A DNA stretch of 15,866 bases from an uncultured Eubacteriales bacterium. GTDB lineage: Bacteria > Bacillota > Clostridia > Oscillospirales > CAG-272. The stretch covers positions 1 to 15,866 of the forward strand of contig CAKSUH010000009.1 of assembly GCA_934500855.1 (NCBI GenBank). The letters are read 5' to 3'. The position numbers and the translations under genes are program-made. A model generated the notes under the pieces. It was not told where the DNA came from. It did not search any database and saw only the letters and a program-made list of their open reading frames with translations. This document shows, in pieces, positions 3,652-15,675 of this stretch (position 1 is its first letter; each line of letters begins with the position of its first letter).

Positions 3652-5304
3652 TCAGACCGTCGGATTGCTTTTTTTCTCCTGCATCAGCGCGGCATAGCGC
3701 AGAAGCTCCTTGCGGGAGGTGATGTTGAGCGTCTGATAAATGTGTTTGTTGTGGTATTTCAGCGTGTTCTCGCTGATTCCGAGCAGATTCCGGATGTCTT
3801 TGCCGTTCTTTCCCGCAAGGTAGAGGTCGAAGATTTCGCGTTCCTTCGGCGTCAGGCGGCAAAGGTTTGTCGCAAAGTGGGCGTAGTCCTCGGGGTCGAC
3901 TTCCTGCATGGCGGAAACGGTCAGGCGGGAGATCTGTGTTTTGGCACGCTCGTATTCTTCGCGCAGCTTGGTCTGTTCGGTTTGCAGTTTTAACAGTTCG
4001 CTGTCGGTCTCCGCCATTTCCCGCTTCAGACCGTCAATAACCGATTGCCTGTTGCGGTCCTTTTCGGCGAGAAAAGCAAAGAGGTCGTCGATTTCGGTCG
4101 GCGCGCCGCGGTGGGCAAGCCGTTCGTCCTTTTTCAGCTGTTCGAGGGATTTCAGAACAGGGGAGAGGTAACTTCGGCTGAAGAAAATGCAGAAAGCAAC
4201 GGAAAGTGCCGTAAGCAGAGCAATCAGCAACAGATTTTTGATAACGGTATCGGTTGCTTCACGGTTATAGTCGCTTTTGTTGGTCATGACAAAAGTTGTA
4301 AAGCTTTCGTCGGTGCGGGGGTCGGTGTAGGTGCGTTTCATACCGAGGTAGGTGTTGCTGTCGTCGGTCAGGCAGATCATTCCGTTTGCAAAATCCGAGA
4401 GAACGAGACTGCCGTTCGGCGCATAGTAATAGCCGTCATCCGATCCGCAGGAGAGGAAGGAGGAGACGCTGTTGCCGTTTCCGTCTCCGTGCGTCAGGAG
4501 TCCCGTAAAGCGCGGGAGCTTGGTGGATTGGCTGTGCAGTCTCGCAAAACAGCTTTCGGACACTTCAAAGCCGCAAACACCGAGCGTTTCACCGTTGCCG
4601 TTCCGCACGGGGAGCATGAGAAGCGTTGCTTTTTCGGACATTCCGGGCAGGGTAAACACATCGCTGAAGCGGTAGGAATACGCAAGCGGCAGAGCGGGGA
4701 CGATCCTGCTTCTGCCAAACTCGGAAATGATATCGGTCCGCGTTTCCAGCCGCCATTTTCGGTGCGGCATGATGCCGTGCGCTTTGCCGACGGAGGAAAT
4801 GCCGCGATACAGGATCATTTCGCGGCGGTCGGTTTCGTAGCCGTTTACCTGAAGGTACAGACCGCTGCGGGAGGGGGAGCTTTCATCCGAGCCTGCCGTG
4901 GCGTTGAGCAGGATGAACGCGCCGGAGCAGTCCGCCTGCAACAGGTATTGACGGAGCGGCTCGACCATACGCTCTTGCAGGGCGGCAAGATGTGTGCTGT
5001 CGGAAAGCCCGTCAAGCGTGATGCCCGCATCCGAGAGGTAATTCTCAATCAGCGAAGCGGCTTCCTCGGACAGGTAGGAGCCGACGGTGACAAGGTTGTT
5101 CCTGTGAGAAAGAAGTTCTTTTTCAAAACTCATCGCCTGCGTATCGAGCCGCTCGGCAAGGGTGTCTCTCGGGGTTTTGAAGCGACCGAACAGCGAGAGG
5201 CAGACGGCAAGCAGAGCAAGCAGCAGGAGCACGGGGACCAGCATATAGAGAACCAGCTTGGTCCGCATACTGTTTCGCGGCAGGCGGACAGATAATCTGC
5301 TCAA
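3652..5304 (-). CDS. Membrane-tethered LuxR-type regulator with extracellular sensor domain
   Basis: The 550-residue product has a transmembrane helix at about 16-40, a large extracellular region at about 41-355 that resembles a Cache-type sensor in size and placement, a second transmembrane helix at about 357-377, a charged coiled-coil segment at about 385-465, and a C-terminal LuxR/GerE HTH at about 482-540 (LTPKEREIFDLYLAGKNGKD..ISENTLKYHNKHIYQTL). It should bind DNA while anchored in the membrane and respond to an external cue; the Cache assignment is inference. The start is TTG at 5304, because AAAGGAGG lies 6 nt upstream; the first in-frame ATG (5268) has no such site. The gene follows the solute-binding lipoprotein by 12 nt, so that protein may present the ligand. 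No receiver or kinase domain is seen. Confidence 0.88.
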   Translation of the reverse strand: MSRLSVRLPRNSMRTKLVLYMLVPVLLLLALLAVCLSLFGRFKTPRDTLAERLDTQAMSFEKELLSHRNNLVTVGSYLSEEAASLIENYLSDAGITLDGLSDSTHLAALQERMVEPLRQYLLQADCSGAFILLNATAGSDESSPSRSGLYLQVNGYETDRREMILYRGISSVGKAHGIMPHRKWRLETRTDIISEFGRSRIVPALPLAYSYRFSDVFTLPGMSEKATLLMLPVRNGNGETLGVCGFEVSESCFARLHSQSTKLPRFTGLLTHGDGNGNSVSSFLSCGSDDGYYYAPNGSLVLSDFANGMICLTDDSNTYLGMKRTYTDPRTDESFTTFVMTNKSDYNREATDTVIKNLLLIALLTALSVAFCIFFSRSYLSPVLKSLEQLKKDERLAHRGAPTEIDDLFAFLAEKDRNRQSVIDGLKREMAETDSELLKLQTEQTKLREEYERAKTQISRLTVSAMQEVDPEDYAHFATNLCRLTPKEREIFDLYLAGKNGKDIRNLLGISENTLKYHNKHIYQTLNITSRKELLRYAALMQEKKSNPTV

Positions 5305-5310
5305 GGTGTG

Positions 5311-5318
5311 CCTCCTTT
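5311..5318 (-). promoter_or_regulatory. Shine-Dalgarno overlapping the upstream stop codon; fixes the TTG start
   Basis: On the minus strand AAAGGAGG begins inside the TAA stop (5319-5317) of the solute-binding protein gene and ends 6 nt before TTG (5304). This supports both the TTG start and translational coupling of the two genes. Confidence 0.8.
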
Positions 5319-6648
5319 ACATGGCGGCGAGAAACAGCTCCCACAGCTCTGCGGCGAGCGCGGCGGCACTTTCTCCGTTCTTTATCCGCGCGGGAAGGGA
5401 GGACTGGACCTTGCGGATCTCGGCATACAAACCGTTAACCCTGCCGTAGTAGCCCGGGAAGGACGGCTCGCGCAGGAGGGTGTAATCGCTCTTGACGGTG
5501 TTCAGCGCGGCATAGAGGTTGCGGTAGCCGTCATCGCGGAAGGTGTGGTCGGTGAACCGCGCATATGCGCCCGCAGTGACGGGCATATACCCCGTCTCGG
5601 AGACGAAATCGAGATTGCGCTCGCCTTCGGTAAGCCAATGGGCAAAGACCGACGCCGCCTCGGCTTTTCTGTCGTCTGTTTTCACGGCGCACAGACCGAC
5701 GCCCGCCTGCGTGTCAACCTTTTTCGCGCCGTCGGTATAGGGCATGGGACAAACTTTCAGACGCATCGGCTCGGAGGTGTTGTCGGGATAGGTAACGGTA
5801 TCGTTGTAGTAGAGAATTCCCGCCGAGGAGCCCATGCCTGCGGGCGTTTCGCCCGTCATGACCTGCGTGTTGGAATAAAGATCGGCAACCACGATATGTC
5901 CCTTTGCAATCGCCTCGGCAAAGCGCAGGTAAGCTGCTTTCAGTGCTTCGTTCGAGAAGTTATACCGGCTGTCCCGATAGAAGGCGTCCGGGTCCGCGCC
6001 GCCGGACACTGCGTAAAGCTCCACCGCACGGAGGAGGTAATCAAATGCGCAGAAGGGTTTGCCGCCGGAATAGATGTAGTATTTTTCAGCCGCCGCAAAG
6101 AAGCCGTCCCAAGTGGCAAGACTTTCATAGGTCACGCCGGTTGCCGCGGAAAAGCGGTCGAACTCGTTTCCGCTGAGGTAGAGGACATGCGTGGATTTGG
6201 AAGTGGGAAGCACGGAGAGATGACCGTCTACCATTCCGTCGGCAAGAAAGTCGGGGACAAAGGCGGAAAGCTCTTTTTCCGAGAAAAGGGTATTCCAGTC
6301 CAGCAGGCTGTCGGCGCCGAACGCCGCCGCGTCATTGTTGTGACAGAAGAAGAGATCGGGGAGCGGGACTGCGCCTGCCGTGCCGTTCTGCGCCTCCGCA
6401 AGTCGGTCGCTGATTTTGGCGGCAACGGTCATCAGCGTGGTTTTGATCACGATTCCGCGCTCTCTCCCGACGGTGGAGTTGAAGGTATCGATCAGACGGT
6501 TCATGGGGGAGTCGGACTGCTCGCCGTAGGTATGCCACATGGTCAGAACAACGGGATTATCGGCGGAAAGCAGGGATTGCTTGCCGCATCCGAAGAAGCA
6601 AAACGGAATCAGCAGGAAAGCAAGCAGGAAAGCGAGCGCCTTTTTCAT
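5317..6648 (-). CDS. Extracellular solute-binding lipoprotein (family 1-like)
   Basis: The 443-residue product has a lipoprotein signal (MKKALAFLLAFLLIPFCFFG) with the lipidated cysteine at Cys21; the FFGC lipobox is somewhat atypical. The mature part resembles ABC sugar-binding proteins: an N-terminal strand VVLTMWHTYGEQSDSPMNRL at 33-52, a PDLFFCHNND segment near 97-106, a central MGSSAGILYY at about 274-283, and a C-terminal TGYMPVTAGAY motif near 355-365 typical of this family. It would bind a sugar-like ligand outside the membrane. The ATG at 6648 has AAAGGAGG 8 nt upstream. No permease or ATPase genes are adjacent; instead it is followed by the membrane LuxR-type protein in one operon. 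A role in ligand sensing is therefore as likely as uptake through permeases encoded elsewhere. The ligand cannot be predicted. Confidence 0.88.
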   Translation of the reverse strand: MKKALAFLLAFLLIPFCFFGCGKQSLLSADNPVVLTMWHTYGEQSDSPMNRLIDTFNSTVGRERGIVIKTTLMTVAAKISDRLAEAQNGTAGAVPLPDLFFCHNNDAAAFGADSLLDWNTLFSEKELSAFVPDFLADGMVDGHLSVLPTSKSTHVLYLSGNEFDRFSAATGVTYESLATWDGFFAAAEKYYIYSGGKPFCAFDYLLRAVELYAVSGGADPDAFYRDSRYNFSNEALKAAYLRFAEAIAKGHIVVADLYSNTQVMTGETPAGMGSSAGILYYNDTVTYPDNTSEPMRLKVCPMPYTDGAKKVDTQAGVGLCAVKTDDRKAEAASVFAHWLTEGERNLDFVSETGYMPVTAGAYARFTDHTFRDDGYRNLYAALNTVKSDYTLLREPSFPGYYGRVNGLYAEIRKVQSSLPARIKNGESAAALAAELWELFLAAM

Positions 6649-7121: not shown

Positions 7122-7281
7122 CGGCGCAGCAAAAACACGGAAGTTGCAAAGTTGCAACGGCTTGAACACTCCGCTCATCCCGAGTTCCGCGGCATCTGTT
7201 TCCTGCATCGGTCCGAAATCGCGGCTTCGGCTTGCGATTGGAAATATTTCCCCACAAACAGAAACAAAAAGGAGAAAAATC
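7122..7281 (+). promoter_or_regulatory. Leader upstream of the EF-Tu-like lipoprotein gene
   Basis: The segment contains GTTGCAAAGTTGCAAC (7143-7158), a repeated GTTGCAA whose second copy forms the palindrome GTTGCAAC. It also has a hairpin with a UUCG tetraloop (AATCGC 7217-7222, GCGATT 7234-7239) and the palindrome GGAAATATTTCC (7240-7251). I see no convincing -35/-10 pair. The Shine-Dalgarno AAAAAGGAG lies 7 nt before the ATG at 7282. Confidence 0.4.
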
Positions 7282-9786
7282 ATGAAACGAAAAAGACTCT
7301 TTACCGTATTTGCAGGCGTTCTGACCATTCTGTTGCTTCTTTCGGCGCTTGCGGCGTGCGGAAAAAAGCACACTTTTTCCGAGGAATGGAAGGCTGACGA
7401 ATCGAGCCATTGGCACGAATGCACGGCTAAAAAGCATACCGACACCTCAGAGAAAGAGGACCACGCGTTTGACGACGGCGAAATTACGACCCAACCTACC
7501 GAAACCGAAAAAGGCGTAAAGACCTTTACCTGCAAAATCTGCGGATACCGTAAAACCGAAGCGGTTGACACGCTTCCGCATACGCACAAATTCAACACCG
7601 AGGTCTGGGAAAAGGACCAAACGAACCACTGGCGCGCCGCAAGCTGTGAGCACACAACCGAAAAGGATGCGCTTGCCGCACATACTTTTTCCAAGTGGAC
7701 CGAAAAGACTCCTGCTGCCGTTCACGCCGATCGGGTGGAACAGCGCAGCTGTACGGTCTGCGGCTATGAGGAGACCCAAACCATAGCCGGAACCGCACTT
7801 CATTCCTATAACGAAAGTCAGTGGATGAAGGACGAAACCGGACACTGGCACGAAAGCACCTGCGCGGGGCATGATCCCAAACTGACCAAGGATTTTGCCG
7901 CACACAGCGGAGAGTGGACGGTGAAAACCGAGGCAAATTACGGGCAGAACCGCATAGAGCAACGCGATTGCGCAGTCTGCGGTTATCATGAGGAACGGGC
8001 TGTTGAAGGTTCGATGCTCCCGCCCAAGGCAAGAACGATTACAATTGACGATTCGTTTGACGGATTTGTATTTGACGGCACGCGTAAGTCGATTGAGAAA
8101 TACATCACCGTAACCAACAAAGAGGGCGGCATGAAGATCGAATACCGTCTTGCGGGTGCCGAGAATTGGTCCGTCGAAGCCCCGATCGAAGCGGGATCTT
8201 ATGAATATTCGGTTGTGTTGACCGGAACGCCCGAGTGGGCAGAGTGCTCGTTCAAATCATCGTTCCGTATCGCTCCATACGGGATTAAGCTGACCGCTTC
8301 CAAATTCGAGATTGAGTTGGGCGGCAGCCTTTCGGGCGGATCCTTCGGGCTGATGTGCGAGGATGTGTCCTCAAAGGTGAACAGCTGGACCGATTGGGTT
8401 ACGGTCTGCGTTCCCGAAGCGTATCGGGTCGCGGGCAGACACACCATCCCCGTAGGGGAGCTGTTTACGGACGAAGAAAACTTTACGGTTGACGCGGGCA
8501 GCCTTGAAACCGTTGAATTCCTCGTTCTGGACACTGCGGATTTCTATTGCGGCATTCGGGATATCTTTAGCATGAGCGACGGCAGTGTTCTGATCGAAAC
8601 CGTCATTGCACGCGGAACGCTGTACCCGGGCGATGAAATCTATATCCAGGAACTCGGCAAAACCATCACCGTAACGAAGATCGAGGCACATCGTAAGATA
8701 TTGGACAAAGCAACCGTCGGCGATACGGTTATGATGAAAATCACCGGCGCGACCAAAGAGGAACTGAAGCGGGGCTTTATGCTGGCAAAGCCGGATTCCA
8801 TGGAGGCTTATGACCGGTTTGTTGTGACCATCCGGTTCAGAACGAAAGAGGAAGGTGGCAGACACACACCGGCGCTTTCGGGCTATCCGCTTACCCTGCG
8901 GTTTACGGATACCGGCAAGGAGGTTGTCTGTAGAATTACGCTGCCGAACGGCATGGAGATGCTAGCCCCGGGAGAAACGCTGGAAGGTGTTGCGCTTGAT
9001 TTCGGAATACAGGAGGTCGGATTCGTCGGACGCAATTTCATCGTGATTGAAAGCGGAAAAACCATCGCAGAGGGAACGGTTACGGATGTGCACAGTCACA
9101 CAAAGACCTCCGTGCTGAGCAGCGGGCACTGCCTCTGCGGATATGATGTCAGCGACGATCTGGACGGAACGGGAGACAGCTGCACTTCCGGCAGAAAGCA
9201 CTATCTGAAAACGGAACAGAGAATTTTTGACATTGCCGTTTCGCCTTCCACCGGAAGCGGCACGGTCCGCTACAAGATCGGGCTTTCCGCCGCAGGCTTT
9301 ACTTTCCGCGTTTACGACGGCGGCAGTGTTTTGACCCCCGATGCGGACGGCGTGGTTGCACTCCGCGCCGATGCAACGAAGCTGCAGGTGATTGTGGTGG
9401 CAAGCGACAACGGGTATTGCGAGATGACGGTTACCAAAAATCCGCCTGTCAGACTGATTTTTGACGAAGCGACCGGTAAGGCAATCTCCGAAAAACTGTT
9501 TTACACCAAAGGCACAGCGAGTGAATATATCATCGGGCTCGGCGCACCGTCCGGAAATGCAGTCCGGTATACCTTCTCCCTTTCCAATTCGGCAAATTTC
9601 ATCCTGGCGGTGTATGACAGCGCAGGAAACAATATCATCTTGGATTCCACTTACAGCATTGTCCTCCCGCAGGGAACCGCGATTTCGGATTACAGAATGG
9701 TTGTGACCTGCACTTCCGTCGGCGGAAGATATGGGACGATCGGAGCTCAATGTCAGCTGACTGTCACTGCCACGACGGTAGCTTAA
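7282..9786 (+). CDS. Surface lipoprotein with HWHEC/CxxC modules and embedded EF-Tu domains 2-3
   Basis: The 834-residue product starts at ATG 7282 (AAAAAGGAG 7 nt upstream). A classic lipobox LAAC puts the lipidated cysteine at Cys26. Residues 30-245 hold three repeats of the W..D...HWHEC type (36-47, 109-122, 181-194), each followed by a TCxxCGY pair (84-89, 157-162, 230-235). About 252-332 is an MBG/Ig-like module (F.FDGT.KS..AGSYEYSV), and about 335-410 another beta module. Residues 413-604 align without large gaps to elongation factor Tu domains 2 and 3. The rest, about 645-719 and 738-831, looks like two copies of a beta-sandwich (RYKIGLS..FTFRVYD and RYTFSLS..FILAVYD). No GTPase domain, G1-G5 motifs or sortase signal is present. 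It should be anchored on the outer face of the membrane. Its function is unknown; binding of a protein or RNA partner is speculation. Confidence 0.9.
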   Translation: MKRKRLFTVFAGVLTILLLLSALAACGKKHTFSEEWKADESSHWHECTAKKHTDTSEKEDHAFDDGEITTQPTETEKGVKTFTCKICGYRKTEAVDTLPHTHKFNTEVWEKDQTNHWRAASCEHTTEKDALAAHTFSKWTEKTPAAVHADRVEQRSCTVCGYEETQTIAGTALHSYNESQWMKDETGHWHESTCAGHDPKLTKDFAAHSGEWTVKTEANYGQNRIEQRDCAVCGYHEERAVEGSMLPPKARTITIDDSFDGFVFDGTRKSIEKYITVTNKEGGMKIEYRLAGAENWSVEAPIEAGSYEYSVVLTGTPEWAECSFKSSFRIAPYGIKLTASKFEIELGGSLSGGSFGLMCEDVSSKVNSWTDWVTVCVPEAYRVAGRHTIPVGELFTDEENFTVDAGSLETVEFLVLDTADFYCGIRDIFSMSDGSVLIETVIARGTLYPGDEIYIQELGKTITVTKIEAHRKILDKATVGDTVMMKITGATKEELKRGFMLAKPDSMEAYDRFVVTIRFRTKEEGGRHTPALSGYPLTLRFTDTGKEVVCRITLPNGMEMLAPGETLEGVALDFGIQEVGFVGRNFIVIESGKTIAEGTVTDVHSHTKTSVLSSGHCLCGYDVSDDLDGTGDSCTSGRKHYLKTEQRIFDIAVSPSTGSGTVRYKIGLSAAGFTFRVYDGGSVLTPDADGVVALRADATKLQVIVVASDNGYCEMTVTKNPPVRLIFDEATGKAISEKLFYTKGTASEYIIGLGAPSGNAVRYTFSLSNSANFILAVYDSAGNNIILDSTYSIVLPQGTAISDYRMVVTCTSVGGRYGTIGAQCQLTVTATTVA
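8518..9093 (+). other. EF-Tu domain 2 + domain 3 segment inside the lipoprotein
   Basis: Residues 413-604 of the lipoprotein match, in order, landmarks of bacterial EF-Tu from memory: IRDIFSMS for IEDVFSIS, ARGTLYPGDEIYI for ERGIIKVGEEVEI, HRKILDKATVGD for FRKLLDEGRAGE, KRGFMLAKP for ERGQVLAKP, TKEEGGRHTPALSGY for SKDEGGRHTPFFKGY, ITLPNGMEMLAPGE for IELPEGVEMVMPGD, and FIVIESGKTIAEGTV for FAIREGGRTVGAGVV. The order and spacing are colinear, so homology is clear. The GTP-binding domain that precedes domain 2 in EF-Tu is replaced by Ig-like and Cys-rich export modules. Confidence 0.9.
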
Positions 9787-9947: not shown

Positions 9948-10391
9948 ATGCCCGTAAAAGAGAAGAAACTGTTTGACGGTTTTTATATACCGATGATTCC
10001 CGATGCGGATTATTTTTCGGATACGGATATTCACGGCTGCAATTTTCTGTTTATCGATGACAGAAAAAAACGCTTTCTGTTCAGCTTTGAAAGCGGACTG
10101 GACTGCTTTGAACGGTGTCGGGATGACCCGAAATTCCGAAAATACTCCCATACCAAAGGGGAAAGAAGTCTGCATGTAATTCTGTGTGTTCGGGAGGACA
10201 ACGATCCTTTGAACAGTTACGGCTTTTTCGTGTGGGACACGCCGTTCGGTCGGCTGGAAGGACAGGTATCCCTCCCGCAGATGCGGGATTGGGACGGTTG
10301 CGTGTTTCCCGCACTTCTGGCGCTGATGGATGGATTGGAGCAATGCGAAAGCATTGAACATGAATTCGGAAAGGAACCCGGTAATGAATAA
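9948..10391 (+). CDS. Protein of unknown function, 147 residues
   Basis: I do not recognise this family. The product begins MPVKEKKLFDGFYIPMIPDA and lacks a signal peptide or membrane helix, so it should be cytosolic although both neighbours are exported. It is mixed alpha/beta by appearance, rich in Phe, Asp and Arg, with the stretch HGCNFLFIDDRKKRFLFSFES at about 29-49, a DTPFGRLEGQVSLP segment at about 96-109, and an acidic C-terminal helix (LMDGLEQCESIEHEF). The start is fixed by AAAGGAGG 7 nt upstream. Its stop overlaps the start of the giant surface protein gene by 8 nt in a different frame, so the two are probably translationally coupled. That placement suggests an accessory role, such as regulation or assembly of the surface protein, but this is inference. 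Confidence 0.75.
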   Translation: MPVKEKKLFDGFYIPMIPDADYFSDTDIHGCNFLFIDDRKKRFLFSFESGLDCFERCRDDPKFRKYSHTKGERSLHVILCVREDNDPLNSYGFFVWDTPFGRLEGQVSLPQMRDWDGCVFPALLALMDGLEQCESIEHEFGKEPGNE

Positions 10392-13300
10392 AAAAACAAT
10401 CAGAACGCTGAGCCTGCTCCTTGTCGTCATGCTGCTGCTCGGCTGTATGCCGTTCGGCATCCTGTCGGCGTCTGCCGCGGGAGGAAAAACTCCGACGGCT
10501 GAAGGATCTGCGGGAGAATACCGCATTGTTGCATGGGGCGGCATCATCAAAAAAGCAGGGGAAACCACCCCGCTCGGGGACAGCGTCCAAGCGGCTGCGG
10601 GAACGGTGCTGGAGATTTCGCTTGACGAAACCAAGTGGGCGGGTCACAGCTTTGCGTGTTGGCAATGCTCCGACGGAACGATTATCCCGGAGAAGTCGTT
10701 CCGCACGCTGGTTGACCGTTTGGCGGCATTTTACCCCGTATTTTCGGATCTAACGGGAAATTTCGGCGACTGGGAGGTCCTCTTCCGGGGGACCTACTGC
10801 ACGGACAGCATTTTGTATGCCCGCACGGACCCTGCAACCGGGCTTCGGGAATACAGGACCGAGAGAGCCTACCACACGGACTATACCTATGAGCGAATCA
10901 ACGGCGAAAAGCATCTCGTGCGCTGTCAGGATTGCCCGTATACGGACGAGAACTACCATTACTGGGATGCGGGTGTGGTGACCACGGAAGCCTCGCATCT
11001 GACAGACGGCGTAAAGACCTACACCTGTATACAATGCGGAGAGAAACGGTATGAGCTGATTGAAAGGAGCAACAGTCACACTTATCCGTTGTACCCGAAA
11101 GATTCCGACTATATCATCGATGAGCCTGCCGTGGGCAGAACGCCCGGGAAGAGGCATCTGAAATGTACGGTGTGCGGCTTTGAGCAGGAGCCGAAGGCGT
11201 ATATTCTGTCCGCTCTGCCGGAAAGCACCAAGAAAGTGCGGCACTTTACCTATGAGAGCAAGTCCCCCTACGGAGCAGGGTCCGGCTTGAACTCGGCGCG
11301 GGTTGAGGAGCATTATATCAGCGACAACGCCTACTACTTTTCGATCAAGGCGGAAGCCGTTGCGTATCAATTCGAGTTCCTGTGGGTGAATCACGGTGCG
11401 CACAGTCCGATTTACATTCGCTCCGGGACCCGCTACGGCACACCCGAGTCCGCTTATTACGGCATCATCGGTTATGCGGACAACCGGGAGGAATTCATTT
11501 CGATGATCAATTCCTCCCATATGCTTTCCGGTTATAACAACGGCAGGCTTTCCTCTCACCTGACCTCGGAATACAGCGGAAGCCGCTATTTTGAGAAGCT
11601 GTGGAATGACGACTACCAACGCACGAAGCTGAAGATCACAAAGGAAAATGTTACGCGTCCCGGCTGGAAAACGCCGCTGACCGAATATGAATACGATTAC
11701 GGATCGGGAAGAAAACCGCTCCTTTATGTGGACGAAAACAATGTCTGCGTGTTCCAGTATGTCGGACCGGGGGACTCGATGGAGCTGAAATTCACCGAGG
11801 AGCTGGATGAATTTCCGTTTCCCGAGCCCGATCGCGACAGGATTACCTGTTTCGGCTATGAGGTGACCGACGGAACCTATGCGGCAAAAGGGTGGGATCC
11901 ACATTACGGTATGATTTCGACGGAGACGGCTGACGATGAGCGCAGGGTGACGCCGCGTAACGCCGAAGCGGGAAAATACTTCAGCCATTGGGAAAAATAC
12001 AATTTCGATACGAAACGGTTTGAATACTGCACCGATGCGGCAACCTGGATCCCTTCCGTTTCGGATGTCACAAAGCTGAGAGCCGTTTTCAGGGATGTTA
12101 CCTATCACATCAAAGTCAATGGCGGATACTATCAGATCTCCGTCGGCTGGGAGAAATGGAGCGAGGAAACCTTTACCGAGGGAGATGTTCCGTACGGAAC
12201 GGAGATTCGCCTGTGGGCGGACGGAAGCACGGTTCCCGAAGGGAAGGAGACAGACTGCTTTGTCGATAAAAGCGGGGAACGGTTGAGCAGTTACCGCTTT
12301 GTGCCGAATGCCGACGGCGAATATACCATGACCTATAAAAATAAGGAAGCGTATTTCGACGCAGGCGCGCGCAACGGTGTGGTGAAAAAGGACGGCGAGG
12401 CTTTCAGCGGCGGCAGATTCCCCATCGGATCAAGCCTGACGCTGACCTCCGAGAGCACGGACGCTGCGCTTTATCCGTATTTTATCGGTTGGTGCAGGGT
12501 GCGCTACGGCGCAGGCGGAGAGGAATACACGGTCATTTCCGCCGACGCGACCTACACCGCAACGATAGAGGACGATACGGGCAACAACCGCATTGTCGCG
12601 GTCTGGAGCGCTTCGCCGACTCTGCCGGAGAAGCAGTGGCACAACATCCGTATCGTCAAGGGCTTTGCCAAACAGGATTATGACGGAGTTGCCGTTTCCT
12701 GCCTGCGCGTGCCCGACAACACCGAGTTGCTTGTTGTCCGCGATCCAACGGAAAAACTGAAGGTTCAGACATGGATTTCTTCCGATACCGACACGGGAAC
12801 CGTGATCGAAACAAAGTCGGCATCCGATTACGGCACACGGTTCCTTATCAACTCCGCTTCCTCCGACGGCGGCAAGGGGGACGGTAAATATGACGGGAAG
12901 GGCGGAAAACCGGGCGATGGCGGAACGGGCTATCCCGCGAATGTGACCGTCACGGGGACGGTTACGGTCTGCGCGGAAGATGCCCATGTGTGGAATGCGG
13001 GCATGGTTACAACTCCTCCCGACTATGAGCGGGACGGTGTGAAAACCTACACCTGCACGGTCTGCGGAACCGAGCGGACAGAGTCGGTAGCAAAGCTCGT
13101 CGGTTACTGCGTTCATGCCTGCAAAACCTGCGGCAACTGCACGCTGTCGGAAAATGATCCGACCTGTCGGGCCGAGCGCTGTACCTGCACCGCAAAGAAT
13201 CCCCCGATTCTGCTCAACCAAAGCGGAGACATTGCGGGCGTTTCGGGGAATGTCACGCTTTATGTGACGGAACTGATTACGGAGAACGACCGACCCGAGG

Positions 13301-15675
13301 ACACTCCGTATCTGAAATTCGTTGCAGAGGCGGCAGAGGGCTATGAAATTGAGCGGATCTATGACCTTTCCCTCCGAAATGCCGACGGCAGCGCTTACGA
13401 ACTTCCGCTCGGAGAGACACCGACGGTTACGCTGACGGTCGGCAGGTCCAATGCCGAGGCTTTGCGGGACGGCAGAATGTTCCTTACGCACATCACGCCA
13501 AAGGGACCCGAAACCTACGGCGTCGGATTCCGACCGATCACCGTTGACGCGGAAGCCGGTACGGTCAGCTTTACGGTTGAGAGCTTTTCTCCGTTCCTGT
13601 TGGTCAGCACGCCGGTTGCGTATTACGGCAGAAGCGCGCTTGCGGCATTGCCGAATTCCGAAGCTCTGCTCTATGCTTACGATCGGATTGCGGAGGGAAT
13701 CGAAAGAAGCGCGGCGGAAATCAATGTTTACAACGGCGTGAGCGCACTGACCAAGGCGGAACTGGAAACCGTGTTTGACGCGTACCGTTGCGACCGCACC
13801 GAGCATTTCTGGCTCGGAAACGGCTACAGCATCGGACTTGTTTCCAACCAAGCCCGCACATTGCACCCGTCCTATCTGCTGTCGGGAGATGCGCTTGCAA
13901 CGGCAAGGGCGGCATTTGACGCGGCGGTGGGGGAGATGCTTTCGGGTATCACTTCCGAAATGAGCGAATACGCGCGCGAAAAGCTGTTGCACGATCGCCT
14001 TGCGGCAAAACTCGTCTATGACGGAAGCGCCGAAAACGCGCATAATGCCTACGGAGCACTGGTCGAAGGCAGGGCAGTCTGCGAGGGGTATGCCGAAGCA
14101 TTCGCTTACCTGCTTCGGAAGGCGGGAATCCAATCCTTTATCGTAACCGGGAAAAGCGCAAATCCCGGCTCCGGAACATCCGAGGGGCACGCATGGAATC
14201 TGGTCAGAATCGACGGAAAATACTACCACGCGGATCCGACATGGGACGATCAGGGCGAGCAGATTTTCTATGCCTATTTCAACAAAACCGATGCGGAAAT
14301 TCTGGAGGATCACACGATTGACGAAAAGGCGTATGCGTTGCCTGCCTGCACCGATAAGGACGCCGATTACTTTACGGTAAACGGCGGCAGACTGCCCGCG
14401 TTCGATCTTGCGGCAGTGACGGAACTTCTGACGGCGGGAGGCGGCATGGCGCGCGTTTATGTAACGGGGGACCTTGCGGCATTCATCAGCGCGTTTGAAG
14501 CGAATCTTTCCGATGTAATCAGAGGTATGGGACTTACGGGGACGGTCAGCGCTTCCTACTCATCGCTCGGCAGAGAGGTCATTCTCAAAGTAAACGCCCC
14601 GCACATCCATATGTGGTCAACCGAATGGACCGGGAACGGTACGCATCACTGGCATGCGTGCATCGGCGAGGGGCTGTGCAACATCACTTCCGACAGCGAC
14701 AAAAACGGCTACGCGGCACATCTTTTTGACCGCGAGGTCGCCGATGAAATCTATCGGGTTGCCGGAACGGATTCCTCGTACTACAAATCCTGCATCTGCG
14801 GCGCAAAGGGGACGGAAACCTTCACAACCTACACCGTCCGCTTCGATGCCAACGGCGGAACGGGAAGCATGCCGGATGTCGCAAATGTTTTTGCGGGGAG
14901 TTATACGCTTCCCGAAAACGGCTTTACCGCACCTGTCGGAAAGCGGTTTGCGGGATGGGCTTCGGACGCGGCAGGCACGGCTGTTACGGGTAAGACCTAC
15001 AGCATAACGGCGGATGTGACCTTTTATGCGATCTGGGAAGATGATCCGCACACACAGCACGAATACGGCGCGGAGTGGTTCCGTAACGAGAGCACGCACT
15101 GGCACGAATGCGGGGTCTGCCATGAGAAGAAGGATGAGGCGGCGCACGCGTTTGAATGGAAGGTCGATCGGGAGCCGACCCCGTCCGAGGAAGGTTCCGG
15201 GCATGAGGAATGTCGGGTTTGCGGCTACAAAAAAAGCGCCGTTGCCATCGGGCGCCTTGCTCCCTCCGTTGTGGAGGGGAAGGAAAGCACATGGAGCAAG
15301 GGCGGAGAAGCGGGGCTGACATTCCGGTCGGATGCGGACTATGCGGATTTCGTCGGCGTTTTGGTGGACAATGCCGTGCTGTCCTCCGAATTCTACACCG
15401 TGCGGGAGGGCAGCACCGTTGTCGAACTGAAAGCAAGCTATCTCGAAACGCTTGCCGCGGGGGAACATCGTCTGACCATCCGTTCCGGAAGCGGGGATGC
15501 AACCGCAAGTTTTGTTGTGAAATCCGGGTCGGTTCCGACAACGGAAGGTCCGACAGACTCCGGGTCTCCGACCGATACGGTAATCCGGGTGATTGTTGCG
15601 GTCGCGGTCGGCGTCATCTGCGTGATTGTGATTGCGGTTATCGTCCGAAAGAAGGGGACCGCTTCGCGACGGTAA
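10384..15675 (+). CDS. Giant membrane-anchored surface protein with transglutaminase-like domain
   Basis: The 1763-residue product has a Sec signal peptide (cleavage likely after SASAA, about 32). The first part has an InlB-like module (45-122), CxxC units (181-271) and an unassigned beta region (272-485). InlB/Flg_new-like repeats run to about 815, then come a Gly/Lys linker (828-855), another CxxC unit and a Cys-rich knot (913-935). A beta domain (about 943-1080) precedes a transglutaminase-like core with Cys1233 (AVCEGYAEAF), His1269 (EGHAWNLV) and Asp1284 (HADPTWDD), the full catalytic triad. HWHAC/HWHEC units flank a canonical Flg_new repeat (1483-1552). An Ig-like module (1625-1713), a Pro/Thr/Ser linker, one transmembrane helix (about 1733-1754) and a short basic tail complete it. 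No LPxTG motif is seen. The ATG at 10384 has AAAGGA 8 nt upstream. The triad could serve crosslinking or proteolysis. Confidence 0.92.
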   Translation: MNKKTIRTLSLLLVVMLLLGCMPFGILSASAAGGKTPTAEGSAGEYRIVAWGGIIKKAGETTPLGDSVQAAAGTVLEISLDETKWAGHSFACWQCSDGTIIPEKSFRTLVDRLAAFYPVFSDLTGNFGDWEVLFRGTYCTDSILYARTDPATGLREYRTERAYHTDYTYERINGEKHLVRCQDCPYTDENYHYWDAGVVTTEASHLTDGVKTYTCIQCGEKRYELIERSNSHTYPLYPKDSDYIIDEPAVGRTPGKRHLKCTVCGFEQEPKAYILSALPESTKKVRHFTYESKSPYGAGSGLNSARVEEHYISDNAYYFSIKAEAVAYQFEFLWVNHGAHSPIYIRSGTRYGTPESAYYGIIGYADNREEFISMINSSHMLSGYNNGRLSSHLTSEYSGSRYFEKLWNDDYQRTKLKITKENVTRPGWKTPLTEYEYDYGSGRKPLLYVDENNVCVFQYVGPGDSMELKFTEELDEFPFPEPDRDRITCFGYEVTDGTYAAKGWDPHYGMISTETADDERRVTPRNAEAGKYFSHWEKYNFDTKRFEYCTDAATWIPSVSDVTKLRAVFRDVTYHIKVNGGYYQISVGWEKWSEETFTEGDVPYGTEIRLWADGSTVPEGKETDCFVDKSGERLSSYRFVPNADGEYTMTYKNKEAYFDAGARNGVVKKDGEAFSGGRFPIGSSLTLTSESTDAALYPYFIGWCRVRYGAGGEEYTVISADATYTATIEDDTGNNRIVAVWSASPTLPEKQWHNIRIVKGFAKQDYDGVAVSCLRVPDNTELLVVRDPTEKLKVQTWISSDTDTGTVIETKSASDYGTRFLINSASSDGGKGDGKYDGKGGKPGDGGTGYPANVTVTGTVTVCAEDAHVWNAGMVTTPPDYERDGVKTYTCTVCGTERTESVAKLVGYCVHACKTCGNCTLSENDPTCRAERCTCTAKNPPILLNQSGDIAGVSGNVTLYVTELITENDRPEDTPYLKFVAEAAEGYEIERIYDLSLRNADGSAYELPLGETPTVTLTVGRSNAEALRDGRMFLTHITPKGPETYGVGFRPITVDAEAGTVSFTVESFSPFLLVSTPVAYYGRSALAALPNSEALLYAYDRIAEGIERSAAEINVYNGVSALTKAELETVFDAYRCDRTEHFWLGNGYSIGLVSNQARTLHPSYLLSGDALATARAAFDAAVGEMLSGITSEMSEYAREKLLHDRLAAKLVYDGSAENAHNAYGALVEGRAVCEGYAEAFAYLLRKAGIQSFIVTGKSANPGSGTSEGHAWNLVRIDGKYYHADPTWDDQGEQIFYAYFNKTDAEILEDHTIDEKAYALPACTDKDADYFTVNGGRLPAFDLAAVTELLTAGGGMARVYVTGDLAAFISAFEANLSDVIRGMGLTGTVSASYSSLGREVILKVNAPHIHMWSTEWTGNGTHHWHACIGEGLCNITSDSDKNGYAAHLFDREVADEIYRVAGTDSSYYKSCICGAKGTETFTTYTVRFDANGGTGSMPDVANVFAGSYTLPENGFTAPVGKRFAGWASDAAGTAVTGKTYSITADVTFYAIWEDDPHTQHEYGAEWFRNESTHWHECGVCHEKKDEAAHAFEWKVDREPTPSEEGSGHEECRVCGYKKSAVAIGRLAPSVVEGKESTWSKGGEAGLTFRSDADYADFVGVLVDNAVLSSEFYTVREGSTVVELKASYLETLAAGEHRLTIRSGSGDATASFVVKSGSVPTTEGPTDSGSPTDTVIRVIVAVAVGVICVIVIAVIVRKKGTASRR

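Follow-up and report, generated by a model that had tools for sequence, protein, structure and literature searches.

A family of modular lipoproteins that carry EF-Tu domains 2 and 3 without the GTPase domain

Layout of the gene and its neighborhood

The window, as we call the whole stretch of DNA analyzed here (15,866 nucleotides from an uncultured Eubacteriales bacterium), encodes on its plus strand a lipoprotein in which a segment homologous to domains 2 and 3 of EF-Tu (D2-D3) lies between other beta domains. The gene is laid out as follows.

7269..7274, plus strand: Shine-Dalgarno-like AAGGAG, 7 bases 5' of the ATG at 7282
7282..9786, plus strand: whole gene, stop included, for an 834-residue modular lipoprotein with EF-Tu D2-D3 (open reading frame as read; relatives)
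7282..7359, plus strand: signal peptide (residues 1-25) and lipobox Cys26 (LAAC)
7366..8004, plus strand: three HWH/R...CxxC modules (motif positions; borders by eye)
8014..8274, plus strand: MBG/Ig-like beta domain, residues 245-331 (predicted model; borders by eye)
8275..8538, plus strand: second beta domain before D2, residues 332-419 (predicted model)
8539..8796, plus strand: segment assigned to EF-Tu domain 2, residues 420-505 (Pfam PF03144, E=3.4e-8)
8770..8793, plus strand: RGFMLAKP, equivalent of the EF-Tu RGxVLAKP segment (alignment)
8797..9093, plus strand: segment assigned to EF-Tu domain 3, residues 506-604 (Pfam PF03143, E=5.2e-5, below the cut-off; NCBIfam; fold)
8848..8871, plus strand: EEGGRHTP, the D3 motif of EF-Tu (alignment)
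9097..9783, plus strand: two tandem beta domains, residues 606-834 (predicted model)

The lipobox at residues 23-26 was identified by eye. The N-terminal modules have HW[HR] at residues 43, 116 and 188 and CxxC at residues 84, 157 and 230, and confidence in the predicted model is low in parts of this region. The MBG/Ig-like call is backed by a weak Pfam MBG_3 match in the relative P0007 (E=0.0025, below the cut-off), the scans made named no family for the second beta domain, and the two C-terminal domains align with each other at 32% identity (E=0.004).

The NCBIfam EF-Tu model matches the window protein with E=3.5e-28, in a match that runs from EF-Tu position 212 to position 394 of 396. Taken together, the family matches and the predicted structure, which places two barrels in an EF-Tu-like arrangement, show that the D2 and D3 barrels of the window protein are homologous to those of EF-Tu. 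An earlier, sequence-only reading of this DNA had described an exported lipoprotein in which D2-D3 stands beside Ig-like and HWHEC/CxxC modules and the G domain is absent. These points held up, as did the structural comparison it proposed; of the two Pfam models it named, PF03144 matched clearly and PF03143 stayed below its cut-off. The N-terminal G domain with its P-loop is missing, since the match begins at EF-Tu position 212 and the P-loop pattern occurs in 0 of 128 family proteins. The signal peptide and lipobox also speak against cytosolic action in translation.

The left part of the window carries, on the minus strand, ctsR and a UVR-motif gene that we take to be mcsA, and further minus-strand genes there are presumably mcsB and clpC. 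A LuxR-type HTH protein, with membrane spans recognized by eye, adjoins an extracellular solute-binding protein (3652-5304 and 5317-6648, both minus strand), and the two may be a sensor-regulator and transport pair. Downstream of the lipoprotein gene lies a 162-residue protein for which the scans made returned no family. A 1781-residue protein (10330-15675, plus strand) has a transglutaminase core, a List_Bact repeat, HWHEC-like modules and a C-terminal hydrophobic span, and matches the NCBIfam MAG6410 transglutaminase-related lipoprotein model far below the cut-off.

Extent of the family and a membrane-anchored architecture

A whole-protein search found 1032 proteins at E<=1e-5 out of 7996 scored, a total that may include proteins sharing the HWHEC part only; at least 120 are relatives at 36-95% identity. 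At 70% identity, 121 family proteins fell into 9 clusters, and an HMM of D2-D3, built from 11 of the same 123 proteins, found the domain pair in all 123, two of them partial. When residues 408-606 alone served as the query, 37 of 4489 candidates passed E<=1e-10, and a third search, with a query from a distant cluster, gave 10 proteins and added P0124-P0128. Pfam recognizes D2 in P0124-P0127 with E<=1e-4, although two of these matches stay below the cut-off. P0128 shares 31% identity with P0036 across 97% of the part used in the search, and neither Pfam (E up to 0.01) nor NCBIfam (E up to 1e-5) recognizes its D2-D3, which may be drifting beyond detection.

The lipobox pattern is present in 122 of the 128 family proteins. 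Among the exceptions, P0012, P0087 and P0119 have LFSC, which the pattern misses, P0011 and P0073 have a hydrophobic N terminus without a cysteine, and P0004 has no signal in its listed start. The latter, of 590 residues, is 94% identical over 71% of the query, yet 87% over residues 408-606, and has TKAEGGRNLP in D3; we regard it as a mosaic or truncated copy. The N-terminal modules are swapped within the family (HWHEC versus InlB B-repeats in P0011 and P0048), and the D2-D3 pair is retained. Judged by sequence, the D2-D3 lipoproteins are a real protein family, and the earlier suggestion of a dedicated, gene-encoded version of these domains is borne out by a separate gene, with its own signal peptide, that is kept across the family.

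Sweeps with the family alignment returned few genomes. In the order to which genome G001 belongs, a single genome among 297, G200, matched at E<=1e-45, with at most 3 candidates scored per genome; in the family of G200 1 of 40 genomes matched at E<=1e-46, namely G200 itself; a sweep of the class gave 0 of 391 at E<=1e-46, a weak negative with at most 2 candidates scored in each. G200 belongs to the same order as a Christensenellaceae MAG. Its truncated lipoprotein (L089:1501-2049, plus strand) matches the N-terminal part of the family and lies directly 3' of another CxxC-rich protein, whose C terminus holds a hydrophobic span. The match covers profile positions 1-179 only and is cut by the contig end, so that any D2-D3 would lie beyond the cut; no other contig of G200 supplied the missing part, and the sole D2-D3 match in this genome is tuf-sized. 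The presumed McsB of the window matched none of 391 genomes at the strict threshold of E 1e-100 and 275 of 299 genomes at 1e-30, with 38-44% identity among the matches listed; at 1e-10 it matched none of 6 genomes, G200 and 5 of its family, which gives no support for a close relationship between G200 and the bacterium of the window. A scan of genome contigs gave 592 relatives, the best 80 of which were dominated by tuf-like matches because the search patterns fell in D2-D3. Surveys with PF03143 miss many of the lipoproteins because D3 scores low in them.

Carriage by mobile elements was considered and rejected. Searches with tblastn returned 16 phage and 84 plasmid records, and in both the best 10 of the 16 and the plasmid matches listed, the similarity (29-36% identity) does not extend outside query residues 417-621. 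The annotated rows among the matches listed are EF-Tu, several rows are without annotation, no phage or plasmid record covers 80% of the query, and a viral-contig scan with P0015 found no relative.

A second architecture came from genome G004 (locus L018, titled Candidatus Ventrenecus stercoripullorum), which encodes a 282-residue protein that consists of a short N-terminal stretch, a single hydrophobic span and D2-D3. The PF03143 survey of the order of G004 matched 107 of 117 genomes and gave second, divergent matches (86-92 bits) in four, G994, G004, G1072 and G1036, each of which also has a tuf-sized frame of 395-408 residues. Two weak second matches were found besides, one in G1057 (33 bits, internal stops) and one in G1032 (a 28-residue contig-edge piece). 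The divergent loci are as follows.

L103:3402-4529, plus strand: membrane D2-D3 protein, 375 residues
L104:4636-5562, minus strand: membrane D2-D3 protein, 308 residues, FDTTTGQP head
L106:3694-4542, minus strand: membrane D2-D3 protein, 282 residues, FDPITGQP head
L105:238-558, minus strand: fragment, 106-residue frame, D3 and the end of D2 only

The L103 protein combines a zinc ribbon, lysines, a hydrophobic span, a Thr-rich linker and D2-D3 with KEEGGRHTP. NCBIfam EF-Tu models match L103, L104 and L106 over D2-D3 at E 2e-65 to 3e-55, and the Pfam and NCBIfam scans found no G-domain family in them. Basic residues before the span, read by eye under the positive-inside rule, predict that D2-D3 lies outside. 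Close downstream of the gene in G004 lies a 431-residue protein (L106:2255-3550, minus strand) that to our eye looks SPFH/SHOCT-like. PF03143 surveys also covered the order of G001 (131 genomes, 119 of them matched) and its class (148 genomes, 129 of them matched), and among the matches listed there was no divergent full-length one; by open frame and position these matches look like tuf or contig-edge pieces. The membrane form thus seems uncommon in the order and class of G001.

Descent and residue retention of D2-D3

A tree built from 22 lipoprotein rows and 88 further D2-D3 rows, one of which (L087) was called tuf and is a membrane form, separates the lipoproteins from the rest by one branch (SH-aLRT 97). 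A 51-row tree (16 lipoprotein, 3 membrane, 32 tuf) places the lipoproteins in one clade (100/98) and joins lipoprotein and membrane forms against tuf (96/94), a grouping that is weak because long branches meet. The best tree does not unite the three membrane rows in a clade, and a tree that holds them together is not rejected (AU p 0.32). The EF-Tu of a contig filed as a Methanomethylicota archaeon (L054) falls among bacterial rows and is probable contamination.

Residues are numbered as in mature E. coli EF-Tu and were compared between 87 tuf rows, which include a few identical copies, and 10 lipoprotein representatives, namely P0122 and one protein from each of the 9 clusters. All ten representatives have G246E and A270V, where the replaced residues are >=99% invariant in tuf, and all ten have P213G and E243Y, where the replaced residues stand at 92% and 82%. 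The membrane forms keep G246 (3 of 3). These new invariant residues suggest new selection on the lipoprotein D2-D3.

Fifty-seven positions are >=99% invariant in the tuf rows: 16 tRNA contacts, 19 Gly/Pro and 23 others, with one Pro counted in two of these groups. The aminoacyl-tRNA (aa-tRNA) contacts and the roles of single EF-Tu residues are presumed ones. The lipoproteins retain the EF-Tu residue at 34% of the contacts, 57% of Gly/Pro and 41% of the others. The contact set does not differ from the other non-Gly/Pro positions (p 0.27) and is kept less than sets drawn at random from all the universal positions (p 0.06); in the membrane forms the figures are 51%, 85% and 55%, with p 0.38 and 0.03. 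Thus, neither tRNA binding nor the antibiotic pocket seems to be specially kept, single contacts excepted. Q329 and F261 are kept in 0 of 10 representatives, E215 in 1 and N273 in 3; E378 is retained in 8, E259 in 7 and R262 and R288 in 6 each. The proposal that the protein uses the tRNA-binding face of D2-D3 fares poorly against these figures (34% of contacts versus 41% of others, Q329 and F261 lost throughout), yet E378 and E259 persist in most representatives.

The EEGGRHTP motif is intact in the window copy, as the sequence-only reading had it, and is not general in the family: across the representatives Gly317 is kept in 10, Gly316 in 9, Thr320 and Pro321 in 8 each, and Arg318 and His319 in 5 each. 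With R318 and H319 in half of the representatives and G317 in all, the motif looks structural. D2-D3 carries a net charge of -10 to +3 in the 10 representatives and of -6 to -16 in the 3 membrane forms, against a tuf mean of -2.1, and so has gained no positive charge that would serve to bind heparin or nucleic acid. Over the 28 pairs of 8 representatives, identity is 41% in D2, 37% in D3, 45% in the HWHEC part, 43% in the MBG part, 33% in the second beta domain and 28% in the first C-terminal part. D2-D3 is therefore not more conserved than its neighbors, which also fits a plain spacer.

Possible roles of the exported domains

What might two EF-Tu barrels do in a surface lipoprotein? One possibility is that part of a bacterial tuf gene, its D2-D3 half without the G domain, was captured in a lineage of exported lipoproteins and became a two-barrel unit of a modular, beta-rich surface protein. 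The protein would be exported, lipidated and displayed, and the faces of D2-D3, freed of the G domain and tRNA, could act as an adhesin-like ligand-binding surface that escapes the demands of translation, akin to moonlighting EF-Tu on host matrix. Captured D2-D3 as a putative ligand-binding module is the explanation that we consider best, with moderate confidence and by analogy. It is supported by the presence of D2-D3 in 123 of 123 proteins, the lipoprotein clade (100/98), the new invariant residues and the second architecture; P0128, whose D2-D3 goes unrecognized, counts against it. An adhesion role for D2-D3 is put forward as a hypothesis. More tentatively, at least two architectures may have turned EF-Tu D2-D3 into a dedicated extracellular binding domain, an end-point of moonlighting outside translation.

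A near rival, somewhat less probable, is that D2-D3 acts only as a stiff spacer of two barrels within a stalk of beta domains, with binding done by the HWHEC or end domains. In its favor, Gly/Pro is the best kept class (57%), the other universal EF-Tu positions are eroded, conservation is no higher than in the flanks and P0128 has lost a detectable EF-Tu signal. The new invariant D2 residues (e.g., G246E in 10 of 10 representatives) argue against it, as does retention of the pair while the N-terminal modules are swapped between HWHEC and InlB B-repeats (P0011, P0048).

It is improbable that displayed D2-D3 serves as a decoy, also raised earlier, that soaks up EF-Tu-directed toxins or antibiotics (CDI toxins, elfamycins, thiopeptides). 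In a solved CdiA/CdiI complex, EF-Tu is represented by domains 2 and 3 alone (5i4q_C, a sequence match to the window protein), but E215, F261, N273 and Q329, which we take to be drug and aa-tRNA pocket residues, persist in 0 to 3 of 10 representatives, and the general family scans matched no toxin or immunity family among the window genes scanned. It is slightly less probable again that the old tRNA face serves for the extracellular capture of tRNA or another nucleic acid. Descent from a tRNA carrier, the contacts that persist (E378 in 8, E259 in 7, R262 and R288 in 6 of 10) and a weak match of membrane-type L103 to the NCBIfam model "tRNA-binding protein Pbp11" would fit such capture, but the contact set as a whole is not preferentially kept and D2-D3 is mostly acidic or neutral. 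An assembly chimera, such as a join to tuf, or chance resemblance has next to no probability, given E=3.5e-28, relatives on many contigs in 9 clusters and base composition that is even throughout the gene, even if PF03143 surveys found tuf often split at contig ends in draft genomes.

If the ligand-binding reading is true, a surface function of EF-Tu has moved to an exported fragment outside translation. D2-D3 with a lipoprotein signal or membrane anchor and without the G domain is a natural experiment: the gene should be dispensable for translation, and its deletion would therefore test an extracellular role. It is also a warning to annotators that a Pfam EF-Tu domain match is not always a translation factor.

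The family shares with EF-Tu (tuf, TIGR00485) the sequence and predicted fold of D2-D3, the barrel order and the GG of EEGGRHTP. Unlike EF-Tu, the lipoprotein has a lipoprotein signal and no G domain, has lost several tRNA contacts, and has new invariant residues and a separate clade. As in reports of surface-moonlighting EF-Tu, EF-Tu D2-D3 would lie outside the cell (PMC5593925, PMC6822514). One paper places the fibronectin-binding regions of Mycoplasma pneumoniae EF-Tu at the end of domain I, the start of domain II and most of domain III, and describes moonlighting EF-Tu as ordinary EF-Tu without a secretion signal, whereas the lipoprotein has a dedicated gene with an export signal (PMC5593925). 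According to a 2019 review, EF-Tu is without signal secretion motifs and its binding motifs must evolve without jeopardizing the G-protein structure (PMC6822514). The route of EF-Tu to the surface remains open because it has no export signal. Among the matches listed from titles and abstract starts of open-licence PMC literature, we found no exported D2-D3 without a G domain, in agreement with the earlier impression that no such system is described, and did not meet Pbp11 by that name. Pbp11 (NCBIfam NF041207, function from the model name) is likewise EF-Tu-domain-2-like and, at 104 positions, too short for a G domain; it differs in being D2-like only and is matched, among the proteins scanned, by L103 alone (E=8.8e-6; 25.6 bits, where the cut-off is 100). 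In its lipobox and beta-rich modules the window protein resembles modular lipoproteins that combine HWHEC/CxxC, MBG/Ig-like and InlB B-repeat domains, from which its EF-Tu D2-D3 module sets it apart.
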